From Actinomycetota bacterium (GTDB lineage Bacteria; Actinomycetota; Acidimicrobiia; Acidimicrobiales; Ilumatobacteraceae), in contig JAUSLQ010000141.1 of NCBI GenBank assembly GCA_030645675.1, positions 1 to 38,873 on the forward strand: 38,873 bases of DNA, given 5' to 3'. This document shows, one piece after another, positions 2,003-31,443 of this stretch. The first letter of the stretch is position 1. Every line of letters begins with the position of its first letter. The notes below the pieces were generated by a model that was not told the DNA's origin, did no database searches, and worked only from the letters and a program-made list of their open reading frames with translations. Made by a program: the position numbers and the translations under genes.

Positions 2003-2016
2003 GGTGACTCCTTGGT

Positions 2017-5923: not shown

Positions 5924-6023
5924 GAACACCCCCATGGCCGCCCGAAGGTCGCGCGGCCAGAGGGATTATGAACCCTGTTCAGGCGATAGGTCAACAGCGT
6001 TCAAGACAATCCGTCCGGAACTC

Positions 6024-6860
6024 TCAGGACGGGGGCGGACCGGCGCCGCGTTCGTACATGCCACGGACTGCCTTGTCGCCCAAGCCGATCATCACCTTGC
6101 GCGGCAGCACCCTGCTCATGGCCGAGCCCATGAGCCGCACGAGCACTCCCCCGGGCCGCACGTTGAGCTTGCGACCCAGCCCGTTCAGCGCGGCATCCAC
6201 CACACCGCTCGGGGCACCCGGCTGCATCACCTTGGTCGGCTGCAGGCCTGCCGGCAGTGCGGCCGCGAAACCCGGCGTGGCGGTGGCGCCGGGCATCACC
6301 GCGGTGACATCGATGCCGTGCGGGGAGAGCTCGGCCCACAGGCCCTCGGCGAACACACGGTCGAACGCCTTCGTCGCCGCATAGGTGGCGATGTAGGAGG
6401 AGCCTGCGTCGGCCGAGCCGGAGGACATGATGATCACCCCGCCACGCTTGCGCTCGACCATCTTGCGCGTCAGCCCATCGGCGAGGATCACGACCGACGT
6501 GCAGTTGATGGCGATCTGCGCCTGTTTGCGCTCGATCGGCACGTCGAGCCATCGCCCCACGAGACCGATCCCTGCATTGGCCACCAACAGGCCGATCTCG
6601 AGATCGGCGACCGCGGCAACCGCGTCATGGACCTGGGCGGCATCGGAGAGATCCGTGACCAGGGTGCGCACCTCGGCGGACCCCGATGAACGCAACTGTT
6701 GCGCCGTCGTCTCCAATTGCTCCGCCAACACGTCGACGAGCACCAGTGGCATCCCCATCGAGTGCAGGCGTTGGGCGTAGGCGGCCCCAATTCCCTGTGC
6801 GGCACCGGTGACGAGCGCCCAGGGGCCGTAGTGCTGTGCGAAGTCGGTTCGAAGAGTCAT
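6024..6860 (-). CDS. Short-chain dehydrogenase/reductase
   Basis: WALVTGAAQGIGAAYAQRL Rossmann motif; NAGIG; SSYIATYAATKAF active-site YxxxK. Confidence 0.9.
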   Translation of the reverse strand: MTLRTDFAQHYGPWALVTGAAQGIGAAYAQRLHSMGMPLVLVDVLAEQLETTAQQLRSSGSAEVRTLVTDLSDAAQVHDAVAAVADLEIGLLVANAGIGLVGRWLDVPIERKQAQIAINCTSVVILADGLTRKMVERKRGGVIIMSSGSADAGSSYIATYAATKAFDRVFAEGLWAELSPHGIDVTAVMPGATATPGFAAALPAGLQPTKVMQPGAPSGVVDAALNGLGRKLNVRPGGVLVRLMGSAMSRVLPRKVMIGLGDKAVRGMYERGAGPPPS

Positions 6861-6979
6861 CTGGAGCATCCTTGCCGGAACAGCCCGAGCCGTCAACACT
6901 GTTCAATCAGTCGTTGATAGTGTGCGCGCCAGGGCCTCGGCCGGCGGCCGTGCCGGAGTCGAGCCGACGAGGAGGACCA

Positions 6980-8599
6980 ATGCAGATCGGCGACGAGGTT
7001 CCCGATTTCACGACACCATCCGATCTCAGCGTCGGCGCGTTCAGCGACGACGGCCCATGGGTCGTCGTGCCCGGCGAGATGGCGTGGCGGCGCGGGATCG
7101 ACGAGCTTCGCGAACGTGCCGCGGCGCAGGTGCCCGAAATGATCCGACCGCGGCGCCTCCCGCCGCTCCGCGGTGCTGCAGTGGCCCTCAAGCTGAGCGC
7201 GGCGATGGGCCCCTGGCTCGTCAGGAACCGCCGCCGCAAGGACGATCCCGCCGCGCAGGCCGAGCTCGCAGCGAAGCTGCGCCCGGCGTTCGAGTCGCTG
7301 GGCACGACGTTCATCAAGCTGGGCCAGCTCATCGCCTCGGCCGAGGGAATGCTGCCGGCTGCCCTGGTGACCGAGTTCAAGCTCTGCCGCGACCGCGTTC
7401 CGGCCGAGTCGATCGCCCACGTGCGCACGGTCATCGAGGAGGACCTCGGCCGAACGCTGGCGGAACTGTTCGCAGAGTTCGACCCGGTGCCGATCGCCGC
7501 CGCCTCGGTCGCACAGGTGCATGTCGCCAGGCTGCATTCCGGCGAGGAAGTCGTGGTCAAGGTCCAACGCCCGGGCATCGACCGCATCGTGCCGCGCGAC
7601 ATCGCCACGCTCGCATGGCTGGCCCCGATCATCGAGAAGCGCTCACCGCAGGCAGCGATGGCCAATCTCCCCGCCTACATCGAGCTGTTCGCCGAGACCA
7701 TCGTCGAGGAGCTCGACTTCCGGCTGGAGGCGCAGAACATGCTCGACATCGCCGCCGTGCTCGCCGCCACGGATCAACACGCGGTGATCGTGCCGCGGCC
7801 GCACCCGCAACTGGTCAGCCGGCGAGTGCTCGTCATGGAGCGCATGCACGGCTACGGAGTGGACGACGAGGCAGCCATGTCTGCGGCTGGCGTCGACCCG
7901 TCACCGGTGTACCGCGCCCTGATGGTGAGCTTCCTCGAGGGCGCCATGATCCACGGCGCCTTCCACGGCGACCTGCACGGCGGGAACATGATGGTGACCG
8001 AGGGCGGCCGGCCGGCGATCCTCGACTTCGGGATCACCGGTCGTTTCGCACCAGGCAAGCGCCAGGCCCTGCTGGGACTGATGATGACAGCTGCGTCGCA
8101 AGATGCACGCGCGATGCTCGGCTACTTCCGCGATCTCGGAGGGTTTCCTCCTGACGCAGACATGGAACGGCTTGCCGACGAGCTGGGCATCGAGGAACTG
8201 ATGGCACAGAACCCGAACGACGTGTCGCCGGAGGTGATGGCCGTCCAGATGCGCGAGACGACGAAGCGGCTCGTCGCCCACGGCGCCAAACTCCCCAAGG
8301 AGATGTTCCTCTTCATGAAGGGTTTGGTGTACCTCGGCGGGGCACTCACCAGCATCGCCCCCGACGTCGACATGTTCGGCGAGATGGCGCAGATCTATTC
8401 GCTGTTCACGACCGGTCATGTGGGCCACCTCGAGGCAGCCGGGCTGGACGTCGACGCCATGCCCGACGGTGGACAGGTCGCCGAGCTGATGCGCCAGCAG
8501 GTCGGCACCGACGCCGGATCGATGACGTACCTGCAGATGCAGCAGCTGCAGTCCGAACGGGCCGCCGAGCTCCGCGCGGCGATGAAGCGAATGGGCTGA
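6980..8599 (+). CDS. ABC1/AarF/UbiB family atypical kinase
   Basis: LGTTFIKLGQLIASAEGMLP, PVPIAAASVAQVHVARL, VVKVQRPGI, GAFHGDLHGGNMMV, ILDFGITGR; GAGGAGG ribosome-binding site upstream. Confidence 0.93.
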   Translation: MQIGDEVPDFTTPSDLSVGAFSDDGPWVVVPGEMAWRRGIDELRERAAAQVPEMIRPRRLPPLRGAAVALKLSAAMGPWLVRNRRRKDDPAAQAELAAKLRPAFESLGTTFIKLGQLIASAEGMLPAALVTEFKLCRDRVPAESIAHVRTVIEEDLGRTLAELFAEFDPVPIAAASVAQVHVARLHSGEEVVVKVQRPGIDRIVPRDIATLAWLAPIIEKRSPQAAMANLPAYIELFAETIVEELDFRLEAQNMLDIAAVLAATDQHAVIVPRPHPQLVSRRVLVMERMHGYGVDDEAAMSAAGVDPSPVYRALMVSFLEGAMIHGAFHGDLHGGNMMVTEGGRPAILDFGITGRFAPGKRQALLGLMMTAASQDARAMLGYFRDLGGFPPDADMERLADELGIEELMAQNPNDVSPEVMAVQMRETTKRLVAHGAKLPKEMFLFMKGLVYLGGALTSIAPDVDMFGEMAQIYSLFTTGHVGHLEAAGLDVDAMPDGGQVAELMRQQVGTDAGSMTYLQMQQLQSERAAELRAAMKRMG

Positions 8600-8729
8600 G
8601 CCGCCCGGCGATTCCCTCAGCCTTGCCGGCACGCTTCACTGCCCGGTCGAGGCAGTTACTACCAGCACCCTGTTGATCCGCGTGCTGCAGGATGGCAGCG
8701 GCCCAGCAGGCAACTACCGTGCATGCGAC

Positions 8730-9920
8730 ATGTCGTACCAGTTCGCCTCACGCACCAACGGCCTCCGCTCGTCTGCCATACGCGACCTGCTGAAGGTGAC
8801 CGAGATGGAGGACATGCTGTCGCTCGCCGGTGGCCTGCCCACCCCCGACAGCTTCCCGCTGCCGGATCTGCGCCGCGAGGCCGACCGGTTGCTCAGCGAG
8901 TACGGCCCGCGCGTCGTGCAGTACAGCGCCACCGACGGCGTCGTCGAGCTGCGCACCTGGATCGCCGAGCAGTACGCCGCCCAGCTGGGCCGGCCCATTG
9001 CGGTGGAGGGCCAGATCGTGGTCACCCACGGTTCACAGCAGGCCCTCGACCTGCTGGCCAAGGTGCTCATCGACCCGGGCGACGTTGTCGTGTCCGAGTC
9101 GCCCGCCTACCTGGGCGCAGTGCAGTCGATGGAGCTGTTCCAGCCACGCTTCGAGGTGATCCCCGGTGACCAGGACGGCATGCAGGTGGAACTGCTCGCC
9201 GAGCGCCTCGCCGCCGGCCTGCGGCCGAAGCTGGTGTACGTGGTGCCCAACTTCCACAACCCGTCGGGCGCCACCATGTCATTGCCCCGACGACAACAGC
9301 TCGCCGCGCTGGCCGACCAGTACGAGCTGCTGGTCGTGGAAGACGACCCGTATGGTGCCATCCGCTTCAGCGGCGAGCCGCTGCCGGCCGTCGCCAGCTT
9401 CACCGACCGGGTGGTGCACCTCAGCACGTTCTCCAAGATCGTCGCGCCAGGTTTCCGGGTCGGCTGGATGATCGGACCTGCAGAGGTGATGTCGTGGGTG
9501 GCCCGCGCCAAGCAGGCAGCCGACCTGCACACGTCGACCTTCGCCCAGCTCCTGCTCGTCAACGTCGTCCGCCAGCCGGGCTGGCTCGATGCGCAGAAGG
9601 CGCGCATCGTGCCGATGTACCGCGAGCGCTGCACAGCGCTGGCCGATGCGCTCGACGCCACGCTCGACGAGCGCATCACCTTCCACCGGCCGGACGGTGG
9701 CATGTTCCTGTGGACCGAGTTCGCCGACATCACCGACACGAAGGTGCTCCTCCAACGGGCTGTCGAGCAGGGCGTCGCGTTCGTGCCCGGCAGCGCGTTC
9801 ACCATCGACCAGCGCCCCGACGCGAAGGCACGGCTGTCGTACTCCACGCTCGCACCTGCCCAGCTGGAGGAAGCCGTGGCCCGCCTGGGGCGTGCCCTAG
9901 CACTGACCGGCCACCGCTGA
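8730..9920 (+). CDS. PLP-dependent aminotransferase (2-aminoadipate-transaminase/MocR-like class)
   Basis: ISLAGG-like LSLAGGLPTPDSFP, QYSATDGVVELR, VTHGSQQALDLLAK, HNPSGATMS, EDDPYGAIRF, LSTFSKIVAPGFRVGW. Confidence 0.93.
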   Translation: MSYQFASRTNGLRSSAIRDLLKVTEMEDMLSLAGGLPTPDSFPLPDLRREADRLLSEYGPRVVQYSATDGVVELRTWIAEQYAAQLGRPIAVEGQIVVTHGSQQALDLLAKVLIDPGDVVVSESPAYLGAVQSMELFQPRFEVIPGDQDGMQVELLAERLAAGLRPKLVYVVPNFHNPSGATMSLPRRQQLAALADQYELLVVEDDPYGAIRFSGEPLPAVASFTDRVVHLSTFSKIVAPGFRVGWMIGPAEVMSWVARAKQAADLHTSTFAQLLLVNVVRQPGWLDAQKARIVPMYRERCTALADALDATLDERITFHRPDGGMFLWTEFADITDTKVLLQRAVEQGVAFVPGSAFTIDQRPDAKARLSYSTLAPAQLEEAVARLGRALALTGHR

Positions 9921-10029
9921 GGCACTGACCTCGGCCTGACGAAGGCCTCTGCCCCCGCCCGTCGAAGTGGCGGACGATGACAGTGGAGCGCGCTGGCGCG
10001 TGCAACCGAAGAGCGTGAAGGAGATCGCC

Positions 10030-12231
10030 ATGCGAGTCCTCACCCACACGATCGAGAAGATCCAGCCGAGTAGCGGTTCGATGCCCGCGGACTTGTTCGA
10101 GCAGGTATTGGCAGGTCACGGGCTCACCCGGCGGCAGGTGTTCCAGCTGTGCGAACTGGCCGGCCTCGCCGCGGCGGCCACCGCGTGTGGCGGGGACGGC
10201 GACAGCGCGACGAGCAGCTCGGCAGCCACGTCCACCACGGCCGGGGCCACCACCTCCACGGTGCCTGCGACGTCGACCACCGCTGCCCCTCCCACCACAG
10301 AGGGTCAGATCGCCTCGACCCCACCCCCCACGCGAGCGATCTCCACCAAGTGGGCACCGTTCGACGACGCAGGCACCGAGGAGAGAGAAGCCGGCCTGTA
10401 CAGCTCGGCCACCGGCAGCGCCGACAAGTTCAGCGGCAACCTCGACGCCGACGCGTACGCCAAGGTGTCGAGCGGCGCCCAGGGCGCCGCCGCCAGCGCG
10501 GAAGCATGGGTGCGCTGGAGCTACACCCATCCGTCGAGCGCTCCGCTCGTGCGCGCCGCGCCGCAACTCGCGTTCACCACCGACACGGGCGAAGCGGCCA
10601 TTGCGTCCGACGCCGAGAACGGTGGAGGGTCGTACCTGGTCGTGTTGTTCAGCAGGGTGATCGACACCACCGACGGCACCGAGGTTCGGTTCCCCGTCAG
10701 GCGCGAGGGCGCCGCCCGGGTGCTGAACCTCGACCCACTCACCCAATCCCACGACTTCGAGCAGGCGTGCGGCGTGGTGTTCCAGCCGGGGCACGCCTAT
10801 CGCATCGACGCACTGCTGACCGTCCGCGCAGACGTCTTCAGCGCGGCTGGGGTGGAAGTGACCGCCTACCACGGCCCATCGGGAGGCGGAAACGGAGAGG
10901 CATCGAAGTCCTACTCGGCAACCGTGCAGAGCATCACGCTGGTGACGATGGAGCCGCCCTGGGTGCGCACGATGATCAAGTCGCTGTTCGAACCCGCTCG
11001 CGACACCTACGACAGCTACGAGGAGGCGCTCGCCGACGTCTCCGGGCGTGGCTACTTCGAGGCGGGGGCGCAGGTCGAGCTGGCCGCCGGTGGCAGCTTC
11101 CAGCCGGGCTTGTCGTCGATCACGATCACCGCGCTCGATGCGAAGATCGTCCAGCTGCGCAACTGCCCGTTGAGCTACGCGATCAACGCCGCCGGCGACA
11201 CCGCAGTGCTCACGCTGCCTCCGCCGGCACTGCTGCCACTGGAGGGCAAGACCTGGCGCTTCGTGGTGGTGCTCGACCCCGAGTACCTCACCGTTGCCGC
11301 TGGGCGCAGCGACATCGCCGTGCCGGTGTTCCGCCCATGGTTCGACATGATGCTCGACCTCGAGGTGGCGGCGCAGGCGCAGCGGGCGTCGCGGCCGGCC
11401 GGCGTCGGCCCCTCGGTCGACGCTGGGCCCGCCGCTGGAATCGAGCGCCGAGGAACCACCGTCAGCGCGCAGGAGTTCTTCAACCCCAGCCACTGGTGCC
11501 TGGCGCTTCCTGCCAGCCAGTTCCGCGCCCTCACGGCCACGGACGGACGCAGCACGATGCCCGAGTACGCGCAGCCGCTGCCCGTGCTGGTCTACACGCC
11601 GGCCGACGTCGCTGCCCCGGAGTGGAACGACAAGGCGCTGGCGGTCACCGTCGAGCCGATGCCCACCTGGGCGCCGCGCACCTGGCAGTTCAGCACCGAG
11701 CCGTGGGTCATCGTCACGATCCTCGATCTGTGGAACATCTTCTACTGGAGCTGCGCCCACCCCGTGGTAGCCGAGTTCGGAATGGAGCTGTGCGCCAACC
11801 CGGAGTTCGTGCAACTGTTGCAGCGGGTGGGCGAGTCGTCGGAGGACTACCGCCGGTACCTCGATGGCCTCTACTGGCTCACACCGGTGCCGGGTGTGGC
11901 GATCAAGCTCACCGACCTGCCCGAAACGCTGACCGCGGGCTTGACGTCGGGTGGGCCGCTGTACGTCAACGTCGCAGGCGTGCTGGTACCGCTCGTGGTG
12001 TTCCTCTCCCGACGGCTGCGCCGGTTCATCCGCCACGTCGTGGTGCTCGACACGCTGCAGACGGCCTGGGCGGCCGTACGTCCCCGCCAGCAGCACACGC
12101 TCACCCTGGCCGGCCATGTCTCCAACGGGACGCTGGACGACGACGACTTCGACCAGCACACCTACACCGTGCTGATGGACTACGTGCCTGCACTGCAACC
12201 GTGGTCGCTGCAGGAGCCGATCGCCCTGTGA
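10030..12231 (+). CDS. Exported (lipo)protein of unknown function, Ser/Thr-rich linker after N-terminus
   Basis: TRRQVFQLCELAGLAAAATACGGD suggests twin-Arg plus lipobox, followed by low-complexity TSTTAGATTSTVPATSTT; no recognised catalytic domain. Confidence 0.7.
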   Translation: MRVLTHTIEKIQPSSGSMPADLFEQVLAGHGLTRRQVFQLCELAGLAAAATACGGDGDSATSSSAATSTTAGATTSTVPATSTTAAPPTTEGQIASTPPPTRAISTKWAPFDDAGTEEREAGLYSSATGSADKFSGNLDADAYAKVSSGAQGAAASAEAWVRWSYTHPSSAPLVRAAPQLAFTTDTGEAAIASDAENGGGSYLVVLFSRVIDTTDGTEVRFPVRREGAARVLNLDPLTQSHDFEQACGVVFQPGHAYRIDALLTVRADVFSAAGVEVTAYHGPSGGGNGEASKSYSATVQSITLVTMEPPWVRTMIKSLFEPARDTYDSYEEALADVSGRGYFEAGAQVELAAGGSFQPGLSSITITALDAKIVQLRNCPLSYAINAAGDTAVLTLPPPALLPLEGKTWRFVVVLDPEYLTVAAGRSDIAVPVFRPWFDMMLDLEVAAQAQRASRPAGVGPSVDAGPAAGIERRGTTVSAQEFFNPSHWCLALPASQFRALTATDGRSTMPEYAQPLPVLVYTPADVAAPEWNDKALAVTVEPMPTWAPRTWQFSTEPWVIVTILDLWNIFYWSCAHPVVAEFGMELCANPEFVQLLQRVGESSEDYRRYLDGLYWLTPVPGVAIKLTDLPETLTAGLTSGGPLYVNVAGVLVPLVVFLSRRLRRFIRHVVVLDTLQTAWAAVRPRQQHTLTLAGHVSNGTLDDDDFDQHTYTVLMDYVPALQPWSLQEPIAL

Positions 12232-13847
12232 CCGGCCTGCGGGTGCCCATCGCTCTACGTCGGAGCCTCCCTCGCGTGTTCGGCCGGCGCAACCGGAACC
12301 GCTGGCCAACCGGCGGCATCGCCGCCGGTCTTGCCTCAGTCGTGTTGGTGGCCGCCTGTGCCGCAGCGGGCTCCACGCCCAGCGACGACGGCAGCGTCGC
12401 TGCCGGCAGCGTCGCTGCCGGCAAGGTTCCGCCGAGCGACAGCACGACCATCGAGACCGTGGCGTCGCCCGTGCGCCTGGTCTTCCTCGGTGACGTGATG
12501 TTGGGCCGACACGTCGCCGCAGTCGCCGAACTCGACCCCGGGAGCATCTTCGAGCATCTCCGTCCCACGCTGGTCGCCGCGGATCTGGCACTGGCGAACC
12601 TGGAGTCGCCGCTGACCAGCCGGGCGCACATCGGCTCTGGCATCGCCCTCGAAGCCGACCCGTCAGCGGCGCCACTGCTCGCGTCAGCCGGCATCGACAT
12701 CGTCGACCTGGCGAACAACCATGCGACCGACGCCGGCCCGGAGACTGTGCTCGACACGTTGGACGCAACCAGCGCAGCGGGAGTTCGCGCGGTGGGCGCC
12801 GGTGCCGACGACATCGCCGCTGCCGCCCCGTTGATCGTCGACGTCGACGGCGTCCGGGTCGGCATCGTCGCCTTCGACCTCGCTGGGGGCACGGCGGCCG
12901 GTGCCGAGAGCCCCGGGGTGAACGGATGGGACCCTGTTGCCGCCGAGCGGGCTGTGCGGGCGCTGCGCCTGGAGGCCGATGTCGTGATCGTCGGCCTGCA
13001 CGGCGGGGTGGAGTACCTGCCACAGCCCGACCCGGTGCTGCAGCGCGTTGCCGGTGAGCTGGCCATGTGGGGCGCTGACGTGGTGTGGGGGCACGGCGCT
13101 CACGTCGCCTACCCCACGACCACCACCGTGGGCGGCCGGCCGGCGGTGATAGCGCACGGCCTCGGCAACGCACTGTTCGACCAGCGGCTGCCCGGCACCT
13201 CTGAAGGCTTGGTGCTGGAGGTGCTGGTCGATGCCAATGGCGTCGTCGCACAGCGCACCGGCCGCGTGGCCATCGACGCCGGCCGAACCTCGTTCGCCGG
13301 TTGGGGCCTGCCCGCTGGCGATGCGGTCGCGTTGGCCAACGAGTGGTGGTCGCCCGTAAGGGTGATTGCCGAGCAGCCCGCACCGCCGTGCGCCGAGATG
13401 GACATCGACGCCATCTTCCGCCGGCTGCCCGCCGGAGCGACGGTGTTGAGCAGCGCCTGCGGGGACGTCACCGGCAGCGGCGGCAACGAACTGGTCGTGG
13501 CCTATCGCCGGCCGACGAGTGCCGAGACCCTGCAGCGTGCCTTTCCCGGGCGGCAATGGGCCGACTCGCAGGGACTCAGCGCCCACCTGGCGGTGATGTC
13601 GTCCGACGGCAGGATGCTGTGGGGTGCGGCGACGCTGCTCGACCCGGTCGGGCGCGTCACGGTGTGCTCGCACTCGGTGGCCGTCGAACTGACCACTCTC
13701 GACGATCCGGCCGTCACGGCAGTCGGGGCGTGGCGCTGGCGCGAGTTCGGCTTCGCCACCGCGCCGCAACTGCCGGGGCCGGCGTTGTTCAGCTGCGCCG
13801 ACGTGGACGGCGACGGGACGACGGAACCGTACGCCCACCGAACATGA
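12228..13847 (+). CDS. CapA-like (poly-gamma-glutamate synthesis) metallophosphatase, exported, with FG-GAP-like C-terminus
   Basis: LVFLGDVMLGRHV, LALANLESPLTS, IDIVDLANNHATDAG, VIVGLHGGVEYLPQPD, WGHGAHVAYP; C-terminal DVTGSGGNELVV and DVDGDGTTEPY; GTGA overlap with upstream gene. Confidence 0.85.
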   Translation: MTGLRVPIALRRSLPRVFGRRNRNRWPTGGIAAGLASVVLVAACAAAGSTPSDDGSVAAGSVAAGKVPPSDSTTIETVASPVRLVFLGDVMLGRHVAAVAELDPGSIFEHLRPTLVAADLALANLESPLTSRAHIGSGIALEADPSAAPLLASAGIDIVDLANNHATDAGPETVLDTLDATSAAGVRAVGAGADDIAAAAPLIVDVDGVRVGIVAFDLAGGTAAGAESPGVNGWDPVAAERAVRALRLEADVVIVGLHGGVEYLPQPDPVLQRVAGELAMWGADVVWGHGAHVAYPTTTTVGGRPAVIAHGLGNALFDQRLPGTSEGLVLEVLVDANGVVAQRTGRVAIDAGRTSFAGWGLPAGDAVALANEWWSPVRVIAEQPAPPCAEMDIDAIFRRLPAGATVLSSACGDVTGSGGNELVVAYRRPTSAETLQRAFPGRQWADSQGLSAHLAVMSSDGRMLWGAATLLDPVGRVTVCSHSVAVELTTLDDPAVTAVGAWRWREFGFATAPQLPGPALFSCADVDGDGTTEPYAHRT

Positions 13848-22644: not shown

Positions 22645-22691
22645 GTGGAGCTGAGGGGAATCGAACCCCTGACCCCTTCCATGCCATGGAA
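22645..22691 (-). repeat. attL: 47-bp tRNA-Ala 3'-half fragment, direct repeat of 31370-31416
   Basis: gtggagctgaggggaatcgaacccctgaccccttccatgccatggaa is identical at both sites. Confidence 0.93.
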
Positions 22692-22790
22692 TCACCGTGC
22701 ATCCGTTCTCGTTCGCTGACATCCGTAGTGTGCCCCGTGAACAGGACGAATGCAAGAACCTAGTTCGCCCTCGTTCGCTGGGGTACGCTG

Positions 22791-22817
22791 GCTACTACTC
22801 GCCCTACTACTCGCTGG
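22791..22817 (+). repeat. Left subterminal direct repeat (candidate integrase arm site)
   Basis: gctactactcgccctactactcgctgg; 26/27 match to 31287-31313. Confidence 0.85.
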
Positions 22818-22840
22818 GGTGATCATGGAAGGGGTCAGCC

Positions 22841-24016
22841 ATGGCGAAGAAGCCACCAGCCGAACCGGGGCACCACCCCAAGGCGCGCGGCAACGGCACC
22901 GGCAGCGTGTACCAGGAGGGCGCCACGAAGCCCGTCGCCGAGCGCGGCCGGTGGGTCGCTCAGGTGAAGGTCGACGGCAAGTACCGGCGCACCTACCACC
23001 CCACAAAGACCGCCGCGAATAGGGCGCTCGATGAGATGCGCACCGAGGTCAACAAGGGCGCCGTCATCGTCGACGGCAACACCACGCTGGCGGATCTGCT
23101 CGACCGCTGGGAAGCCAAAGTGTTGCCAGCGAAGAACCTTTCGGTCCGCACGCTCGACACGTACCGATGGGCGTGCAGCATCCTGCGCGCCGACCTCGGT
23201 ACCACGCGGTTGCGTGGCCTGACCGCGGACGTGGTGGAGGAGACATTCGAACGGCGCGCCGACGCCGGCATGAGTCGCGCATCGCTGGTGAAGGTGCGCT
23301 CCGTGCTCGGCATGTCGCTGGAGTGGGCCGAGCGCCGCGGCAGCATCGGCCGCAACATCGCGCGCATCGTCGACCTACCCGCAGGGGCGCGCAGGGCCAC
23401 AGAGGGGCGCTCACTGACGGCAGAGCAGGCGCGGGCGATCCTGGCGGCCACAGAGCACCGTCTCCACGCACTCTGGACCGTCATGCTGTACCTCGGCCTC
23501 CGCCCCGGCGAGGCCACCGGCCTGACGTGGGCAGACGTCGACCTCGAGCAGGGCATCGTGCACGTTCGCCGATCGCTCAAACTGGAACGCGGCAGACTCG
23601 TCGTCGACGAGCGACTCAAGACCGACCGCAGCCGGCGCAGCCTGGAGATGCCCGCGCAGCTCGTCGCCACATTGCGGGCCCACCGAACAGAGCAGACGAA
23701 GGCCAGGCTCCGCGCTGGCGAACTGTGGGTGCCCGCGTACGATCTCGTGTTCACCACGGCGCTGGGCACCCCGCTGGGGCCACGCAACGTGCACCGCTCG
23801 CTCACGCAGCTCACGCAGCGACTCGGGCTCGGTCCGGTCCATCCGCACGAGCTGCGCCACTCTCAGGCCTCTCTGTTGAGCGCCGCGGGGGTGCCGATGG
23901 AGCGCATCGCGGACCAGCTCGGCCACGACGGTACCCGCATGGGGCTACTCGTCTACCGGCACGCAGTGAAGCCCACCGTCGACGCTGGCATGGTCATGGG
24001 TGAGGTGCTGTCCTAG
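22841..24016 (+). CDS. Tyrosine recombinase/integrase
   Basis: Catalytic pattern LGLRPGEATGLTWADVD, HPHELRHSQASLLSAAG, DQLGHDG..., VYRHAV; located beside attL. Confidence 0.95.
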   Translation: MAKKPPAEPGHHPKARGNGTGSVYQEGATKPVAERGRWVAQVKVDGKYRRTYHPTKTAANRALDEMRTEVNKGAVIVDGNTTLADLLDRWEAKVLPAKNLSVRTLDTYRWACSILRADLGTTRLRGLTADVVEETFERRADAGMSRASLVKVRSVLGMSLEWAERRGSIGRNIARIVDLPAGARRATEGRSLTAEQARAILAATEHRLHALWTVMLYLGLRPGEATGLTWADVDLEQGIVHVRRSLKLERGRLVVDERLKTDRSRRSLEMPAQLVATLRAHRTEQTKARLRAGELWVPAYDLVFTTALGTPLGPRNVHRSLTQLTQRLGLGPVHPHELRHSQASLLSAAGVPMERIADQLGHDGTRMGLLVYRHAVKPTVDAGMVMGEVLS

Positions 24017-24018
24017 TT

Positions 24019-25056
24019 TCAGGTCAGGCGAATCGGTGAGTCCACCACAGCTCCAGTCGAGCGATTCACCCCGGCCAATCGGCGTCGGGCGTCGCGGGTG
24101 GCTTGCCTAAACGCTCGCTCGTCCGCGTATGCGCTCTCGGGGTGGTCGCGATTCCAGGACGCCATCTGTGCGTGCGTGGAATCTGACGCTGACTCAAGGC
24201 TGTGAATCGCCAGTTCGACCCCCACCGTCGACGGTCGGCGAACAGTCTGCCCTCTTGCCTCCGCTCGACGAGCGACATACTCGCCAACGACCAGATCAAG
24301 CGGAACGTCTGCGTCAGCGGTGAGCGAGATCCGATCAGCCGGCCCGACGACTGAAACGAGATCATCTCCCCGATCCTCGATTCGCGTGCCGGCTGAGGAC
24401 CGCAGAAGCACTGTCCACGGCGTAGTACCGGCGAGCACGAAGCTGGTGCCATCGGAGGGATACCAGTGATATCGCCTCTCCAGCTTCTCGGCGAGTAGTG
24501 CCAGCTCAAGCAGAGGAGAGTCGAGAGCAGGTACCACGGAGCGCGGTTCTCCAGCACCTGACTCATAGCAAACGACCAGGTACTCAACAGACAGCACCTT
24601 GTCGTCCGGATTACAGCGGAATGGCTTGCGGCCGTCGCTGATGACCACCTTGCGCATAGCGGGCACGCCGGTCGGTTGCCCTTCTATCCACCCTGGGATC
24701 TCTGACGGCTGGAGGAGTTCGCCGCGGAGGAGGTGAGTCTCACGGAACTCGACAACTTCGCTAAGCCCACCTGCCTCTTCGGCTGCAAGAAGGGATCGAC
24801 CCCACGCCCATCTCCGCAGATCCTCCGAGGGTTCAACACTCCCTAACACGCGGGCGTCCGGAATCTGAGTACCGGTCCTCTTGCGGCGGGAACGGTCGAT
24901 CAGATCCGCCAGATCGTCGGGGTGCTGCGATTGCACCCAGTGCGTTCCTTCGTCAAGCAGTCCTTCCCACTCCCTGCGCGTCGAGCCCGGCTGACCCGAA
25001 GATCTCAGCCGGTCATCGACGGCGGTGCGGAGTGACGAGAGTCGAAGGTTCGTCAT
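24019..25056 (-). CDS. Hypothetical protein, element-encoded
   Basis: Coherent ORF from MTNLRLSSLRTAVDD; contains YHWYPSDGTSFVLAGTTPW and MASWNRDHPESAYADERAFRQATRDARRRLAG, which resemble an uncharacterised family I associate with actinobacterial mobile elements (memory, not searched). Confidence 0.75.
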   Translation of the reverse strand: MTNLRLSSLRTAVDDRLRSSGQPGSTRREWEGLLDEGTHWVQSQHPDDLADLIDRSRRKRTGTQIPDARVLGSVEPSEDLRRWAWGRSLLAAEEAGGLSEVVEFRETHLLRGELLQPSEIPGWIEGQPTGVPAMRKVVISDGRKPFRCNPDDKVLSVEYLVVCYESGAGEPRSVVPALDSPLLELALLAEKLERRYHWYPSDGTSFVLAGTTPWTVLLRSSAGTRIEDRGDDLVSVVGPADRISLTADADVPLDLVVGEYVARRAEARGQTVRRPSTVGVELAIHSLESASDSTHAQMASWNRDHPESAYADERAFRQATRDARRRLAGVNRSTGAVVDSPIRLT

Positions 25057-25068
25057 ACCCGCACAGTA

Positions 25069-25278
25069 GTGAACATGAGCGACACTCAGCAAACATCCGC
25101 AGTGGAACGACTGGCGTACTCACCGAGCGAGGCCTGCAGCGCGATCGGCGTGGGTCGGACATTCCTCTACTCCCTGCTCGACTCCGGACAGTTGGCGTCA
25201 ATCAGGGTTGGCAGGCGACGCCTGATCCCGCGGGAGGCATTGGATCGCCTCCTCGCCAGCGGTGGTGATGCCGCATGA
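25069..25278 (+). CDS. Helix-turn-helix (excisionase/MerR-type) DNA-binding protein
   Basis: YSPSEACSAIGVGRTFLYSLLDSGQLASIRVGRRRLIPREALDRLLAS is the typical HTH_17/excisionase pattern. Start GTG 25069 or ATG 25075. Confidence 0.9.
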   Translation: MNMSDTQQTSAVERLAYSPSEACSAIGVGRTFLYSLLDSGQLASIRVGRRRLIPREALDRLLASGGDAA

Positions 25279-25520
25279 GGCCCCCGGACGAGATACGCCG
25301 CCCCGGCGGGGGCGGCGCACTCAAGATCACTGGGCAGGTGGTCGGTGAGGCTGAGATTACCAGAGATGGTGCAAATGCCCCAACATGCCCGTTGGTCTGC
25401 GGCGGGCGCGAGGGCTGCACGTGGCAGTGTCCGATCAGCCTCAGCGATGCCCTGGCCGAGGTGCGCGACGGCCTTCAGGCTGCGGCCTCGGCGCCGATCC
25501 TGCGGTTGGTGAAGTCATGA
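25275..25520 (+). CDS. Small hypothetical protein with cysteine cluster
   Basis: ATGA overlap with the upstream gene; CPLVCGGREGCTWQC. Confidence 0.6.
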   Translation: MRPPDEIRRPGGGGALKITGQVVGEAEITRDGANAPTCPLVCGGREGCTWQCPISLSDALAEVRDGLQAAASAPILRLVKS

Positions 25521-25960
25521 TGCCGCCCGGGCCATGTTGGCGGTGCGGCGGCCCCGGCGCGCGTTCGGTGGGCATAAGGGCGTACTGCGGGGCTCATCTG
25601 GCGGAGCTGTTCGCCACGTTCGACCCTGCCCTATGGGCGACCAACGGCGTTGGCTTGCCCTGTGGCCGTCTGCGCCCCGAGTTGGGGTCAGCGGTGGAGG
25701 ATCTCGTTTGCGTGGCCTGTGGGGCCACCTGGGCCGGCCTGGCGGGCGAACGGTGCCAGTGGTGCCGCGCACACCGTGAACGGATCATCGCCCATCAGCG
25801 GGCGATGCTGCTCACTGTTCCTGAGGTGGCCGAGGGCGACGAGGTAGACCGCGTGCTGACCGCGTGGGGCGAACGGCTGCGCCTCGCGGTCGACGCCGGC
25901 ATCGTCACCCGCGACGAGGCGACGCGGGTGTGGCGTCGGGCGGTGTCCCTTGCCGCGTGA
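25517..25960 (+). CDS. Small zinc-ribbon-like protein
   Basis: ATGATG start overlaps upstream stop; CWRCGGPGARSVGIRAYCGAH and CVACGATWAGLAGERCQWCRAH Cys motifs. Confidence 0.65.
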   Translation: MMPPGPCWRCGGPGARSVGIRAYCGAHLAELFATFDPALWATNGVGLPCGRLRPELGSAVEDLVCVACGATWAGLAGERCQWCRAHRERIIAHQRAMLLTVPEVAEGDEVDRVLTAWGERLRLAVDAGIVTRDEATRVWRRAVSLAA

Positions 25961-26966
25961 CCTCAACTTCACCACCATCCCACCCGCGGCCAGACACCCC
26001 CGGCACGGACCGTCAGCACCGCCGACCGATGACGGGTACCAGTTGCTGCAGGTGGTCGACTGGGCAGAGGTGTTCACCCGCCCGCCGGTCGACGCGATCG
26101 TTGACGGCCTGCTGATCCCGGGGCGGTGGACCGCGCTCGTTGCGCCCGCCAAGGCCGGGAAGTCGACGCTGGCGCTACACATCGCGCACACCCTCGCTCG
26201 CGGCATAGACCCGTTCACAGGGGTCAGGCGTGCCCCGGTGACGGTGCTCTACATCGACGGCGAGATGGGCGAACTGGACGTGCACGAACGGGTCGTCGCG
26301 CTCGACCTGACCCCCACGGACCTCGTGCGCCTGCACTACACCGATCGACCCCCCAAGGGCGACACCGCACCGGGTGGCATCGCGGTGGAGTCCACCGTCC
26401 GCGCCCTCGGAGTCGAGGTGGTGATCCTCGACGGACTCAACGCACTGATCAGCGGCGCCGAGAACGACGACCTCCCTTGGCGCAACCTCTACGAACTGAC
26501 CATCGCCCCACTGAAGAGCGCCGGCTGCGCGGTGCTGTCCAGCGACAACACCGGCCACGTGGAAACACACCGCGGCCGAGGGTCAAGCGTGAAGCTCGAC
26601 AAGGCCGACGCGGTGACCGAGGTGAAACGCACCGACTCAGGCGTGAGGCTGCTGACACCCCGCCCGCGGTGCGCCGCGTACGCCCGCGAGATCGTGCTCG
26701 CGATCGACGGCGCCGAGGGCGACCGGCCGATCACCTACCGCCACGCGCTGCACTCATGGCCTGACGGCACACACACCGCGGTCGCGCTGCTCGACCGCCT
26801 CGGCGTGCCCCGCAACGCAGGCCGACCCGCCGCGCTCGCAGCCCTCAAGGCCGCGGGTGAAGGGGTCCGAACCGAGGTGCTCGCAGCCGCGATCAGGTAC
26901 CGAAAATCGGCGGGAACACCCCCGGGAACACCCCCTCCGGAACAGTTGGAGGGAACAGCCGAATGA
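25950..26966 (+). CDS. AAA-family ATPase, RepA-like (AAA_25)
   Basis: Walker A LVAPAKAGKSTLALHIAHTLARG; VLYIDGEMGE; Walker B VVILDGLNAL; TTG start overlapping upstream stop. Confidence 0.85.
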   Translation: MPRDLNFTTIPPAARHPRHGPSAPPTDDGYQLLQVVDWAEVFTRPPVDAIVDGLLIPGRWTALVAPAKAGKSTLALHIAHTLARGIDPFTGVRRAPVTVLYIDGEMGELDVHERVVALDLTPTDLVRLHYTDRPPKGDTAPGGIAVESTVRALGVEVVILDGLNALISGAENDDLPWRNLYELTIAPLKSAGCAVLSSDNTGHVETHRGRGSSVKLDKADAVTEVKRTDSGVRLLTPRPRCAAYAREIVLAIDGAEGDRPITYRHALHSWPDGTHTAVALLDRLGVPRNAGRPAALAALKAAGEGVRTEVLAAAIRYRKSAGTPPGTPPPEQLEGTAE

Positions 26967-27073
26967 ATACCCCCTCTGACCTGGCAGGGAACAGCTACGG
27001 GAACAGCGCGGAACAGCCGCCCCGGCCAACTGGGAACAGTTGGGGGTGTGTACGTAGTACACCCCCTGTTCCC
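26912..27073. repeat. Iteron-like array of GG(G)AACA(G), 8 direct copies plus 1 inverted
   Basis: Copies begin near 26912, 26924, 26939, 26951, 26987, 26999, 27010 and 27032; inverted CTGTTCCC at 27066-27073. Confidence 0.75.
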
Positions 27074-27208
27074 CAGGCCCGACCGCGCAGGCCGGGGGGT
27101 GGCCGGATTTCAGAGGCGACGCCACGAGTGAGCACGACGGCGCTCGGTGCCCGTTCTCTCTCTATTCGCTCTCAGGTTTCCGACCCACGACGTGGAGACG
27201 ACCTGTGA
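26963..27208 (+). CDS. Small hypothetical ORF overlapping the iteron-like array
   Basis: ATGA overlap with the ATPase stop and GTGA overlap with the next gene; composition shaped by the repeats, so coding status is uncertain. Confidence 0.35.
   Translation: MNTPSDLAGNSYGNSAEQPPRPTGNSWGCVRSTPPVPQARPRRPGGGRISEATPRVSTTALGARSLSIRSQVSDPRRGDDL
27032..27074. other. Large imperfect hairpin at end of iteron-like array
   Basis: GGGAACAGTTGGGGGTGTGTAC-GTA-GTACACCCCCTGTTCCCC; two interrupted stems. Confidence 0.8.
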
Positions 27209-27534
27209 AGCCGGCGCATCATCAGGGCCGGTTCGACGGCGACGCGCGGCGCGTGCGGCAGACGGCCAACAGCACCCCTCTGGCGGTCTGCTGGCGGTGT
27301 GGTCGCACGCTGCGCGAGCACCCTGCAGCGAAGTCGGGCAAGCCGCAGGTCTGGACGGCCGGCCACACGGTCGACGGCGACCCGAACGCGCGGCCCTGGC
27401 TGAACGTCACCCGCCAACCCCCGGCCGGTAGCTGGCTGGCCCCAGAGGCATCCGGGTGCAACTTCGCGGCCGGCGCTCGACGCACGAACGCGTGGCGCGG
27501 CAACCCGCATTCGCAGCAGTGGTTCAGCACGTGA
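27205..27534 (+). CDS. HNH-like / zinc-binding protein
   Basis: CWRCGRTLREHP...WTAGHTVDGDPNARPWLNV...PEASGCNFAAGAR resembles actinophage HNH proteins but diverged at key positions. Confidence 0.6.
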   Translation: MKPAHHQGRFDGDARRVRQTANSTPLAVCWRCGRTLREHPAAKSGKPQVWTAGHTVDGDPNARPWLNVTRQPPAGSWLAPEASGCNFAAGARRTNAWRGNPHSQQWFST

Positions 27535-27908
27535 TCGTCGTTGGTCCGGTCGATCCGTTGTTGGTCAGGCATCTGCAGCGGGCGTTGTCGTCGCACTTCC
27601 GCTGGTGCCGGGAGCAGGGGGTCGCGGTCCCGGCTGAGCTGCGCGGGTTGTTCGACGCGTTGGCCAGCGACGGCCAGCGACGGCCAACGGGTGCGCGGTC
27701 GGGCGAGTCGGGTGATGATGCGGCCATGTTGCTGGCACTCACCTACGACCAGGCCGCTGGCCGGCTGGGTGTGTCGTCGCGCACGGTCCGCCGGCTGGTC
27801 GCCGCCGGTTCGTTGCCGTCGGTGATGGTCGGTGGGCTGCCACGAGTGAGGGCGGCAGACCTTGCCGCCTATGTCGAAGGGATGGAGGTTCGGTGCGCCG
27901 GGAACTGA
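27531..27908 (+). CDS. Helix-turn-helix DNA-binding protein (excisionase-type domain)
   Basis: GTGA overlap; LTYDQAAGRLGVSSRTVRRLVAAGSLPSVMVGGLPRVRAADLAAYVE. Confidence 0.85.
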   Translation: MIVVGPVDPLLVRHLQRALSSHFRWCREQGVAVPAELRGLFDALASDGQRRPTGARSGESGDDAAMLLALTYDQAAGRLGVSSRTVRRLVAAGSLPSVMVGGLPRVRAADLAAYVEGMEVRCAGN

Positions 27909-28507
27909 AGCATTTCAAGTCGGTCGATCTGGGCGACAACGGTGAGGTTGGGGCGGTGTTCTCGACGTTCAACGTGGTCGACCTCGATGACGACATCGTG
28001 CTGGGCGGTGCGATGGCCAACGGCCAGCGAGTCGCGATCTCCGCGTGGGGTCACGGGTCGTGGGAACCGGGCTTGCCGCCGATCGGCATAGGCGTGGTCC
28101 GCGTCACTGCCGATGAGGCGGTGATGAAGGGTCGGTTCTTCCTCGACACCGCGGCCGGGCACGACACGTTCGTCGCGGTCAAGGAACTGCACAAGCACGG
28201 CCTTGGCGAGTGGTCGTACTCGCTGCACGATGTGACCTCGACCCGTCAGACGATCAACGGGCGCCCGGTGCGCGTGATCTCGTCGGTGACCATCGCGGAG
28301 GTATCGCCCGTGATGCGGGGCGCGTCGATGAACACGCGCACCCTGTCGGCCAAGGATCTGGCGGTGATCGACCAGGCCCGCGAGACGCTCGACGGGTTGA
28401 GCGCCGCCGACCGCGCCGAGCTGGAAGCGATCCGTAAGCGTTCCGACGCCGTGTATGCCGACCTGATGCGCGCGGAGTTCGCCAAGTTCCAGAGGAACAG
28501 CCGATGA
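27893..28507 (+). CDS. HK97-family phage prohead protease
   Basis: GEVGAVFSTFNVVDLDDDIV, AWGHGSWEPGLPPIGIGVVRV, GRFFLDTAAGHDTFVAVKELHKHGLGEWSYSL. Confidence 0.88.
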   Translation: MRRELKHFKSVDLGDNGEVGAVFSTFNVVDLDDDIVLGGAMANGQRVAISAWGHGSWEPGLPPIGIGVVRVTADEAVMKGRFFLDTAAGHDTFVAVKELHKHGLGEWSYSLHDVTSTRQTINGRPVRVISSVTIAEVSPVMRGASMNTRTLSAKDLAVIDQARETLDGLSAADRAELEAIRKRSDAVYADLMRAEFAKFQRNSR

Positions 28508-28788
28508 TCTGCTCGACCGCCGCCCCGCCCGCCGCGGCACTCGCCGCGGAGATCACGGTGCACCTGACCGCGCACGCCTACCAGCGGCCCGCGCCGCGGA
28601 TCATGTGGTGCACCCCTGAGACGCCCGCAGAGGCCGCCTACGTCGACTGCTGGGGCGTTCGCGACTGGCCGGCAGCCGATGTGCCGCTGGCGTCATTCGA
28701 CGCGCTGGGCCGGTTGTGGCTGCGTGCCGATCGCCTCGACGACCTGACCCCCGAACTCGTCGCCGGCCTCATCGCCGGCACCAACTGA
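28504..28788 (+). CDS. Hypothetical phage-like protein
   Basis: ATGA overlap with the prohead protease; coherent ORF. Confidence 0.6.
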   Translation: MICSTAAPPAAALAAEITVHLTAHAYQRPAPRIMWCTPETPAEAAYVDCWGVRDWPAADVPLASFDALGRLWLRADRLDDLTPELVAGLIAGTN

Positions 28789-28802
28789 AAGGACACCCCC
28801 CG

Positions 28803-28940
28803 ATGCTGCACGATCCCCCGAGCAACAAGGCCGTCCACCCGGCCCGCGGCAAAGACCGCCCGCGCACCAAGGACATCAAGCCCGCTCCCACCCCGACCAC
28901 GGACACCGAGCAGATCGAAGGCGGTAGCGATGCTGCGTAA
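28803..28940 (+). CDS. Short hypothetical protein
   Basis: Lys/Pro-rich 45-aa ORF overlapping the next start. Confidence 0.4.
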   Translation: MLHDPPSNKAVHPARGKDRPRTKDIKPAPTPTTDTEQIEGGSDAA

Positions 28941-29520
28941 GCCGGAGAACAAGGCCGCGGACACCCCCGAGGACGACACCCGCGACCGGGGCGCGGAGAT
29001 GTACCCCGCCGACGATGGTTGGCGACCCGTGTTCGACCGCTTCGGCCGCCGCTACGGCTTCTACCACGACAGCCACGGGCTCAAGGACGACCCCGACGTG
29101 CCCCGGTTCTTCCAACCATCACCCGACCCGATCAGCCTCGCGGTGTTCGCCTCCGATGAGGTGATCAAGGCGAAAGCCGCGGCCGACGCCGAGCGGCTCG
29201 AGGTTGAAGCGAAGCGGGCCGAGTGGGAACAGGCCATCGCACGCGAAGCAACCCTGAGCGTGTTCGTCCAGAGCGCACGGATGATCGAACGGCCACCGGG
29301 CAGCAGCAAGTACCTGTACCTGTTCCCGGACGGAACCGAGCTCACCCCGGACGACCTGCGTGCAAGGCGCCACAGGCTCAATGACGCCACCACCGACGCC
29401 TGGCGCGACTACGAGCGCGCCGAGGCCGAGTTCGCACGCATCAACGCCGACCACCACCAGGCAACCATGCGCGTCCGCGACCGACTCGTCGCCCAGCCGG
29501 CGGGCCGCAAGAGCCGCTGA
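28930..29520 (+). CDS. Hypothetical phage-like protein, charged/coiled-coil
   Basis: Coherent 196-aa ORF with Ala/Glu/Lys-rich helical segment. Confidence 0.65.
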   Translation: MLRKPENKAADTPEDDTRDRGAEMYPADDGWRPVFDRFGRRYGFYHDSHGLKDDPDVPRFFQPSPDPISLAVFASDEVIKAKAAADAERLEVEAKRAEWEQAIAREATLSVFVQSARMIERPPGSSKYLYLFPDGTELTPDDLRARRHRLNDATTDAWRDYERAEAEFARINADHHQATMRVRDRLVAQPAGRKSR

Positions 29521-29644
29521 GGGGCCCTACGCATCCGCAGGACTGGCGACACCTGGCAGTGTTCGCGGGAGCGACCCTGTCATCTTGAGCTGAAATCGGG
29601 GCCGCTGGACCGTCGAAACGTGGCGGAGACCGTAGTGTCCTCAC

Positions 29645-29878
29645 GTGCACTTCCCCTCTATGAAGGCCGGAGATCTGTTCGCGGTGCTTCAGCGTGCTCC
29701 CCTGCGGTACGAAGTCACGCGGACCTCCGGCAGCCACAGGCGGATGGAGTCCGCTGGGGGCTACCCGCCACTGACATTCGCTTTTCACGCGACGCAGACT
29801 CTTCCTCCAGGGCTCGTGCGAAAGGTGCTGGTCAAGGACGTTGGCCTCACCGTCGATGAGGCAAGGGCGCTACTCTGA
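29645..29878 (+). CDS. hicA: HicA-family toxin (mRNA interferase)
   Basis: MKAGDLFAVLQRAPLRYEVTRTSGSHRRMESAGGYPPLTFAFHATQTLPPGLVRKVLVKDVGLTVDEARALL: GSHR motif and C-terminal pattern. Start GTG 29645 or ATG 29660. Confidence 0.85.
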   Translation: MHFPSMKAGDLFAVLQRAPLRYEVTRTSGSHRRMESAGGYPPLTFAFHATQTLPPGLVRKVLVKDVGLTVDEARALL

Positions 29879-29945
29879 TCCCATCCGCGTGCGCTACCCT
29901 TTCGTAGCACGTGTGTGGTCGTCGAGGCAGGAGACCAGGTTCACC

Positions 29946-30257
29946 ATGACAGCGATTACGTATCATGCAGAGGTAGCTGACGGGGTTTTCTGCGTCTGGG
30001 CCGAGAGCGATGACATTCCCGGTTTTTCAGCGGCAGCAGACGGCCTAGAAGGGGCGCGGCAGCTCGTGTGGGAGTTTCTTGAGGCAGAAGGCCTGACGGA
30101 CTCCGTCATCGAGCGACTCAGTGACAAGACCGACGCCGGTCTACACCTCTGGTTCGTCGGCGGCGACGATGTCTTCCTGACGGCGATGTCGGCCCCGCGT
30201 CCCCCGCGTCAGCCAATCCGTTGCGAAGAGATTCACGTGTTGAGCAGTGCCGGCTGA
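29946..30257 (+). CDS. HicB-like antitoxin (DUF1902-like)
   Basis: ITYHAEVADGVFCVWAESDDIPGFSAAADGLEGARQLVWEFLEAEGL, directly downstream of hicA. Confidence 0.75.
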   Translation: MTAITYHAEVADGVFCVWAESDDIPGFSAAADGLEGARQLVWEFLEAEGLTDSVIERLSDKTDAGLHLWFVGGDDVFLTAMSAPRPPRQPIRCEEIHVLSSAG

Positions 30258-30675
30258 CGAGTCCGGCGTCCGCCTGCAAGCACTCCTGCTAGCTGACTAC
30301 GCGAACATCAGAGAAGGAATGCTGAACGTAGTGAGTTCGGGCGTGGCCCGAGTCACCGCCCATGCGTACCCGGCACACCTTCCGCTCTACGTAGCGATTC
30401 AGCTCTTCATCCCGGCTAGCGCCCTGAACAGGCTGCACTCCGGTTGCATGTCGGTGAAGTACAACGACGGGGAGTCCATCGGTAGGGCTGAGTTTGCAGT
30501 CAGCGCGTCCGGCGTTGATGACCTTCACCCTGGCGAGGCCGTCTACTTTCCCGCTGTCATACCCCTTCACCCCCTGCCGTTTCACCACACTGGGGAGATC
30601 GATGTCAACATCGATATCAACGGATCGCACAACGGCTCCGTGACGTTCTGGCTCGTCGACGGGGCATCTGAGTGA
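30247..30675 (+). CDS. DUF6941-like protein
   Basis: LQALLLADYANIREGMLNVVSSGVARVTAHAYPAHLPLYVAIQLFIP; GTG start overlaps the hicB-like gene by 11 nt. Confidence 0.65.
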   Translation: MPADESGVRLQALLLADYANIREGMLNVVSSGVARVTAHAYPAHLPLYVAIQLFIPASALNRLHSGCMSVKYNDGESIGRAEFAVSASGVDDLHPGEAVYFPAVIPLHPLPFHHTGEIDVNIDINGSHNGSVTFWLVDGASE

Positions 30676-30696
30676 GGTTGCCGATCGAACACTGAG

Positions 30697-30744
30697 GACG
30701 CGCAACGGCCCCGCCACCCGAAGGCAGCGGGGCCGTTGCGCGTC
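30697..30744. terminator. Bidirectional terminator-like hairpin
   Basis: GACGCGCAACGGCCCCGC-12 nt-GCGGGGCCGTTGCGCGTC: perfect 18-bp stem between convergent ORFs. Confidence 0.85.
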
Positions 30745-30955
30745 ACGCCACGGGCGTCGTTGGTCCTGTCGGTGGCCTCGGCCGGAACTCCAGCACCGTT
30801 GCCCCAATTGGGGAACCAATTGGTTCCATCCCGACCGAGCGCAGTGGCACCACCGGGCGCAGCGGTGCGAGCATCTCGTCAAGCGCGGCGTCCACCCGGC
30901 GAATCTCAGCCCTGATGCGCTCGCGTTCGATCGCTGCGTCATCCACGGTTGCCAC
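30743..30955 (-). CDS. Small hypothetical protein
   Basis: 70-aa ORF overlapping the upstream minus-strand ORF; stop codon inside the terminator stem. Confidence 0.55.
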   Translation of the reverse strand: MATVDDAAIERERIRAEIRRVDAALDEMLAPLRPVVPLRSVGMEPIGSPIGATVLEFRPRPPTGPTTPVA

Positions 30956-31241
30956 CCGCCTTGAACGTCAGCACGGTCGCGTCGCTCTCGACCTTGCAGA
31001 TGCCCCCTGCCACGTGCTGCGCCTCGATCCTGGCCAGAGTCTCGTTGGTCTTACGCATGGCGCGAATCGTGCGCTGGTGGTCGGTGAGGCCATCGGCCGC
31101 ACGTGCTGCACGCTGCTGCGCCTGGTGCTCGGCCCACCACTCGTCATCGGTCTGCCTCGTCGGCGCGATGGCGACGACCTCGGCCACGTGATCAGGTTCG
31201 ATCACGTGGGTTGGCGCCGGTTGAATCCTCTTCGTTGTCAT
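30939..31241 (-). CDS. Small hypothetical protein
   Basis: Start MTTKRIQPAPTHVIEP; upstream extension of the ORF into the tRNA is spurious. Confidence 0.6.
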   Translation of the reverse strand: MTTKRIQPAPTHVIEPDHVAEVVAIAPTRQTDDEWWAEHQAQQRAARAADGLTDHQRTIRAMRKTNETLARIEAQHVAGGICKVESDATVLTFKAGGNRG

Positions 31242-31286
31242 TGGGTTCCTCCTCGTGTTCTGGTTGGCCAGCAAGGAGAACAGGGA

Positions 31287-31313
31287 GCTACTACTCGGCC
31301 TACTACTCGCTGG
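31287..31313 (+). repeat. Right subterminal direct repeat (candidate integrase arm site)
   Basis: gctactactcggcctactactcgctgg; 26/27 match to 22791-22817. Confidence 0.85.
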
Positions 31314-31338
31314 CCGAGCTGATCCCATGACGCGAAAC

Positions 31339-31364
31339 AACCCCAGGTGTTGTGACCTGGGGTT
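31339..31364 (-). terminator. Element-supplied hairpin downstream of the rebuilt tRNA
   Basis: AACCCCAGGT-GTTGTG-ACCTGGGGTT just past the tRNA 3' end. Confidence 0.65.
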
Positions 31365-31370
31365 TGTTCG

Positions 31371-31443
31371 TGGAGCTGAGGGGAATCGAACCCCTGACCC
31401 CTTCCATGCCATGGAAGTGCTCTACCAACTGAGCTACAGCCCC
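31371..31443 (-). tRNA. tRNA-Ala(GGC), CCA not encoded
   Basis: GGGGCTGTAGCTCAGTTGGTAGAGCACTTCCATGGCATGGAAGGGGTCAGGGGTTCGATTCCCCTCAGCTCCA folds as a cloverleaf; loop ATGGCAT gives anticodon GGC. Confidence 0.95.

Follow-up and report, generated by a model that had tools for sequence, protein, structure and literature searches.

Gene content and borders of the element

The window analysed here, a 38,873-nucleotide stretch of DNA, is one contig (C153; GenBank JAUSLQ010000141.1) of an assembly of an uncultured Ilumatobacteraceae genome, 4.09 Mb in 296 contigs that is about 80% complete. It contains an 8.7-kb element, integrated at a tRNA-Ala gene, in which an integrase and a predicted replication module are accompanied by a prohead (head maturation) protease without a recognised capsid gene, and which is best read as a protease-only variant of the known capsid-bearing reduced satellites. 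The element is bounded by two 47-bp direct repeats that are 100% identical (22645–22691 and 31370–31416). Its features are listed below (HTH, helix-turn-helix; orf, open reading frame; TerL, large terminase subunit; aa, amino acids).

22645–22691, no strand: attL, a 47-bp copy of the tRNA-Ala 3′ end, identical to 31370–31416
22791–22817, no strand: left subterminal repeat, a CTACTACTCG pair 12 bp apart, putative arm sites of the integrase
22841–24016, +: tyrosine integrase, 391 aa (Pfam PF00589, PHROG)
24019–25092, −: orf357, no family in Pfam, PHROGs, NCBIfam or PADLOC, lower G+C (62%), divergent to HTH1
25069–25278, +: HTH1, excisionase-family DNA-binding protein (TIGR01764 1.2e-12; PF12728)
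25275–25520, +: orf81, overlapping its neighbours
25520–25960, +: orf146, upstream of repA (match in L158, 1.6e-10)
25950–26966, +: RepA-like AAA ATPase of replicative helicase/loader type (PF13481; 1g8y)
26963–27208, +: orf81b, start conserved in the related locus L024 (51% over 39 aa)
27205–27534, +: orf109, small Cys-containing protein, found between repA and TerL in phages
27531–27908, +: HTH2, second excisionase-family protein (TIGR01764 1.2e-13)
27893–28507, +: prohead (head maturation) protease, 204 aa, putative catalytic H54, S108 and E136 (phrog_80; T4 gp21 fold)
28504–28788, +: orf94
28803–28940, +: orf45
28930–29520, +: orf196, predicted alpha-hairpin coiled coil (structure model)
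29645–29878, +: HicA-like toxin (PF07927 5.1e-7)
29946–30257, +: putative HicB antitoxin (position only; no family match)
30247–30675, +: DUF6941 protein (PF22091 1e-9)
30743–30955, −: orf70
30939–31241, −: orf100
31287–31313, no strand: right subterminal repeat, again a CTACTACTCG pair 12 bp apart
31331–31369, no strand: terminator-like inverted repeat in the right end, adjoining the tRNA and similar to what follows tRNA-Ala in the relative G007 (95% over 39 bp)
31370–31443, −: intact tRNA-Ala (GGC), whose 3′ 47 bp form attR (31370–31416)

The subterminal repeats, 27 bp each, lie just inside both element ends. Their CTACTACTCG motif occurs four times in the window against 0.04 expected, always within these repeats and in the same orientation, and the 23-bp repeat pattern (up to two mismatches) is found at two places in its own assembly, which are the two element ends, and at one place in G006, a different species of this genus, where it adjoins a sister integrase. 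The tandem repeats are probably the arm sites of the integrase, which carries the R..HxxR..H..Y motifs in an intact frame and matches both Pfam PF00589 (4.7e-22) and the PHROG integrase family (1.6e-56).

All element genes are open. From HTH1, a probable excisionase/recombination directionality factor by its family, eleven co-directional frames (HTH1, orf81, orf146, the RepA-like ATPase, orf81b, orf109, HTH2, the prohead protease, orf94, orf45 and orf196) overlap or lie at most 15 bp apart and form one gap-free operon; as a result, no ragged junction is left at the presumed former position of TerL-portal. The orf146 product has a 35% match inside a longer frame that overlaps repA in the viral contig L158. 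In the model of orf196, a beta hairpin caps a long alpha-hairpin, and there are only weak prefoldin-like or coiled-coil matches; no relatives of orf196 were found in the collections searched. The block from HicA to DUF6941 (61% G+C) and orf357 (62%) are lower in G+C than the element core (69%) and the host (68%), a composition consistent with their being cargo, which orf357 probably is.

The original prediction, made from the letters of the sequence, had placed 47-bp direct repeats within tRNA-Ala around an integrase, two HTH genes, a RepA-like ATPase, a prohead protease and a HicA/HicB pair. The repeats are as described, the right copy being the 3′ end of the tRNA gene, and the integrase is borne out by its family matches and motifs, as the ATPase and protease are by the profile and fold matches given below. 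Both HTH genes are of the HTH_17/excisionase type, the second being best read as 27531–27908. HicA was recovered, whereas HicB lacks a family match and is placed by its position. Further element genes, beyond those first listed, are orf357, orf146, orf109, orf94, orf45, orf196, DUF6941, orf70 and orf100.

Protease, replication module and phage gene order

The protease is recognised by the PHROG head maturation protease family (phrog_80, 4.4e-10); its Pfam S78 score (0.035) is below the cut-off, and a sequence search of the PDB gave no match. In a structure model built from 26 aligned sequences (pLDDT, predicted local distance difference test, 82.7), the best PDB matches are three T4 gp21 chains (probability 0.96–0.99, E 0.015–0.045; best chain 0.99, E 0.015). 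The protein retains 33 of 37 near-invariant residues, among them H54, S108 and E136, which we take to be catalytic from their conservation and from what is generally known of HK97-type proteases. Its predicted fold and putative catalytic His/Ser/Glu mark it as an S78-type head maturation protease, shorter than nearly all of its phage relatives and with a similar terminal motif. At IMG/VR loci with this protease family (44, near-duplicates included), the portal gene lies upstream in every case and a major capsid gene follows in 41, the other three contigs ending within ~150 bp of the protease.

Searches of the element with Pfam, PHROGs and our own profiles detected neither TerL nor any portal, capsid, tail or lysis gene, in agreement with the absence of capsid, portal and TerL noted originally. 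A capsid hidden in orf94, orf45 or orf196 was considered and rejected: these frames have no family matches, and the orf196 model is not a capsid fold.

The RepA-like ATPase matches AAA_25 (PF13481, 1.6e-20), and its family profile matches plasmid RepA (1g8y). In 30 viral contigs with this RepA family, TerL lies 1–5.5 kb downstream. The orf109 product is 56% identical to its counterpart in L024 and 33–47% identical to those in viral contigs; its homologue stands between repA and TerL in eight of the viral contigs and upstream of TerL in L006. The order in phage relatives is repA-orf109-TerL-portal, and the order in the element, repA-orf109-HTH2-protease, is, on sequence comparison, colinear with that of phages minus TerL-portal, with everything from the capsid onward apparently replaced. 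Because complete phages have these genes in the same order, repA-orf109-(TerL-portal)-protease, we infer phage descent, and the element is almost certainly a phage-derived integrative element.

Recent deletion from a phage already seen is ruled out by protein identities of 33–56%, and the phage collection holds no close DNA match to the element apart from a 45-bp tRNA stretch. The original prediction had named two observations that would speak against it, namely the same content within a full-length phage and decay of the element genes; the first applies in part, gene order being colinear with that of complete phages, but no near-identical parent was found, and the element genes look intact rather than decayed.

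Relatives, known satellites and competing interpretations

Two complete elements from the same bacterial family are cousins by their RepA. L021 (positions 3182–10852, in genome G001) measures 7.6 kb between 31-bp repeats, and L022 (positions 2363–11026) is 8.6 kb long and lies at tRNA-Pro with 51-bp repeats; each carries an integrase, an HTH gene, RepA and a lone HK97-type capsid (481 aa in L022), and neither has TerL or portal. Both share with the element att repeats, a tyrosine integrase, HTH and a single head gene within 7.6–8.6 kb, and a RepA from one family with that of the element (48% identity for L021 and 38% for L022); they differ in that the head gene is the HK97 major capsid, not the protease, and in integrases that are 27–40% identical. 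L021 is a candidate capsid-only satellite; its capsid has 271 aa, its RepA has an N-terminal extension, and it also encodes a WhiB-like small protein. RepA is joined by a capsid in L023 (contig cut) and, in L056 (positions 1074–9605), by an integrase and TerL on a single contig, which ends before any portal is detected and makes L056 a possible TerL-only cousin; TerL is present in L020 too. In L024, which has no head gene, RepA and orf109 are accompanied by genes for a SocA-type antitoxin and a methylase-like protein. L059, a match in G266, was set aside as a larger island with restriction-modification-like genes and weak RepA similarity. The impression from these few loci suggests that one replication module may be combined with different single head-morphogenesis genes across this bacterial order, and the cousin set would offer a testable natural series of the shrinkage of phages into satellites.

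Among described systems, the candidate phage-inducible chromosomal islands (PICIs) of Mycobacterium, which include phiRv1 and phiRv2, are defined by an integrase plus a major capsid, use tRNA sites and sometimes carry helicases (PMC10654092). They resemble the element in size (~9–12 kb), integrase, excisionase, replication gene and, often, a tRNA att site (PMC10654092; PMC3986857), and some share its prohead protease, as in phiBN42_1, which has an integrase, excisionase, primase, prohead protease and capsid (PMC3986857). They differ in holding a major capsid; the element has the integration gene of this definition, but its protease stands without a capsid gene, none being found in the element by Pfam, PHROGs or profile, or in the assembly, and the likeness to phiRv1 and phiRv2 is one of layout. 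The layout of L021 and L022 is that of the mycobacterial candidate PICIs (PMC10654092). The phiRv-style satellite or reduced prophage first proposed thus holds as regards layout and precedent, but not as regards the capsid on which the definition turns.

Capsid-forming PICIs (cf-PICIs) are likewise integrated, with a satellite-like layout, and possess a head maturation protease; according to a summary in PMC10690885, they encode capsid, portal, connectors and both terminase subunits, whereas capsid, portal and TerL were not found in the element (the small terminase, TerS, was not separately excluded). Classical PICIs, P4 and PICI-like elements (PLEs) have in common with it an integrase, an excisionase-type regulator, a replication module, the want of a virion structural set and a presumed helper; the element differs in having no recognised capsid-size redirector (Sid, CpmAB, TcaP), TerS or Rpp. 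IMG/VR phages of the L006/L101 type have proteases 34–53% identical to that of the element, and those of the L139/L150 type have repA and orf109 in the same order; both types differ in their TerL-portal blocks and, in the protease relatives, in the protease-capsid pair.

As expected of a satellite, the element has an integrase with defined att sites, what appears to be its own replication module in the RepA-like ATPase, and an incomplete virion gene set; the terminase, portal, capsid, tail and lysis genes of a self-sufficient prophage are missing. Integrase and HTH excisionase would recombine attL and attR via the arm sites to release an 8.7-kb circle, which the RepA-like ATPase, judged by its family, would replicate after induction. 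Since the element itself lacks TerL, portal, capsid and tail genes, the circle would be packaged in helper particles, and we infer helper dependence on these grounds. Jointly, integration and excision, RepA replication and helper packaging would describe a reduced, helper-dependent phage satellite, which we regard as likely on balance; that the element is a functional satellite rather than a remnant is, in our estimate, fairly probable. The lower-G+C genes (hicA/hicB, DUF6941 and orf357) may serve stability or defence. The protease might act in trans on an HK97-type helper head, cleaving it or timing its maturation for the satellite and against the helper, with the coiled-coil orf196 as a possible assembly partner. 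Action of the retained protease on helper heads is possible rather than likely, and it is doubtful that there is a class of satellites with a protease and no capsid that takes over or sabotages helper head maturation in trans, with orf196 as partner.

Satellites redirect their helpers by scaffolds, small terminases or whole capsids, and a protease-only element, if the proposal is true, would be a new lever for doing so. The literature covered describes neither a protease-only satellite nor redirection of a helper through a protease, which is weak evidence given that coverage was limited.

Several observations weigh against a helper-dependent satellite. The element has no identified small terminase, cos or pac site (TerS, again, not being separately excluded); the ~80%-complete assembly has no HK97 capsid, and no helper is known. 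The terminal branch of the protease is the third-longest of 41 and four near-invariant positions are changed, a pattern compatible with either relaxed selection or adaptation. No other element with the protease and without a capsid was found: all 44 viral loci have an adjoining portal, nothing but the window gave a match in 397 genomes of the phylum or in 199 relatives, and 395 genomes of the class yielded a single further match, L062, an ordinary prophage-like locus with TerL, portal and capsid (the three sets overlap, so that their counts are not additive).

Some of these facts feed the main rival explanation, that a full repA-orf109-TerL-portal-protease-capsid phage lost TerL-portal and the capsid-tail-lysis genes by deletion and is now a decaying or domesticated prophage, with the protease as a leftover that plays no part in transmission. 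Colinearity with full phages, the long protease branch and the joint absence of capsid, TerL and portal all speak for it, and slow decay stays a live explanation because no second protease-only element has been found; nevertheless, every gene is open, the operon frames overlap tightly at both presumed junctions, the 47-bp repeats are still perfect, the integrase motifs and putative protease catalytic residues are kept, and a single head gene other than the protease is found repeatedly in RepA cousins of this size. We consider this history unlikely, if a serious contender. A phage-defence or interference island, in which the protease mistimes the head maturation of infecting phages, the HicAB-like pair, DUF6941 and orf357 add further defence and transmission is secondary, would suit a stand-alone intact protease, a HicA-like toxin and lower-G+C cargo. 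It is improbable: PADLOC gave no convincing match for any element protein (repA alone had a weak, partial match, to mad8), and no capsid substrate is known for the protease. Least probable is a plasmid-like integrative element with borrowed phage genes and other means of movement, for which the match of the RepA profile to plasmid RepA and the SocA-type antitoxin and methylase-like cargo of L024, the RepA/orf109 cousin without a head gene, could be cited; the annotated frames include no relaxase or mobilisation gene, and repA has no match in 72,556 plasmids and many in phages and viral contigs.

Occupancy of tRNA-Ala in related genomes

The same tRNA gene is occupied in G006, where contig C132 carries the sister integrase (76% identical; cut off where the contig stops) with an att core copy of 96% and the chromosomal neighbourhood seen in the window. 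This truncated gene with its att core and arm repeat lies in locus L061 (positions 1–763), and the remainder of that element was not located. In eight other genomes of the genus, the tRNA-Ala regions examined hold no such integrase, protease or capsid (the region in G004 ends with its contig). Integrase relatives in six further genomes are situated in other islands with no protease seen; integrase kinship therefore says little about element content. In contig C94 of G002, locus L060 has three copies of a 43-bp sequence like the tRNA-Ala 3′ end with conserved flanks (positions 2224–2302, 8316–8394 and 12545–12623), which, at spacings of 6.1 and 4.2 kb, are possibly the scars of serial integration.

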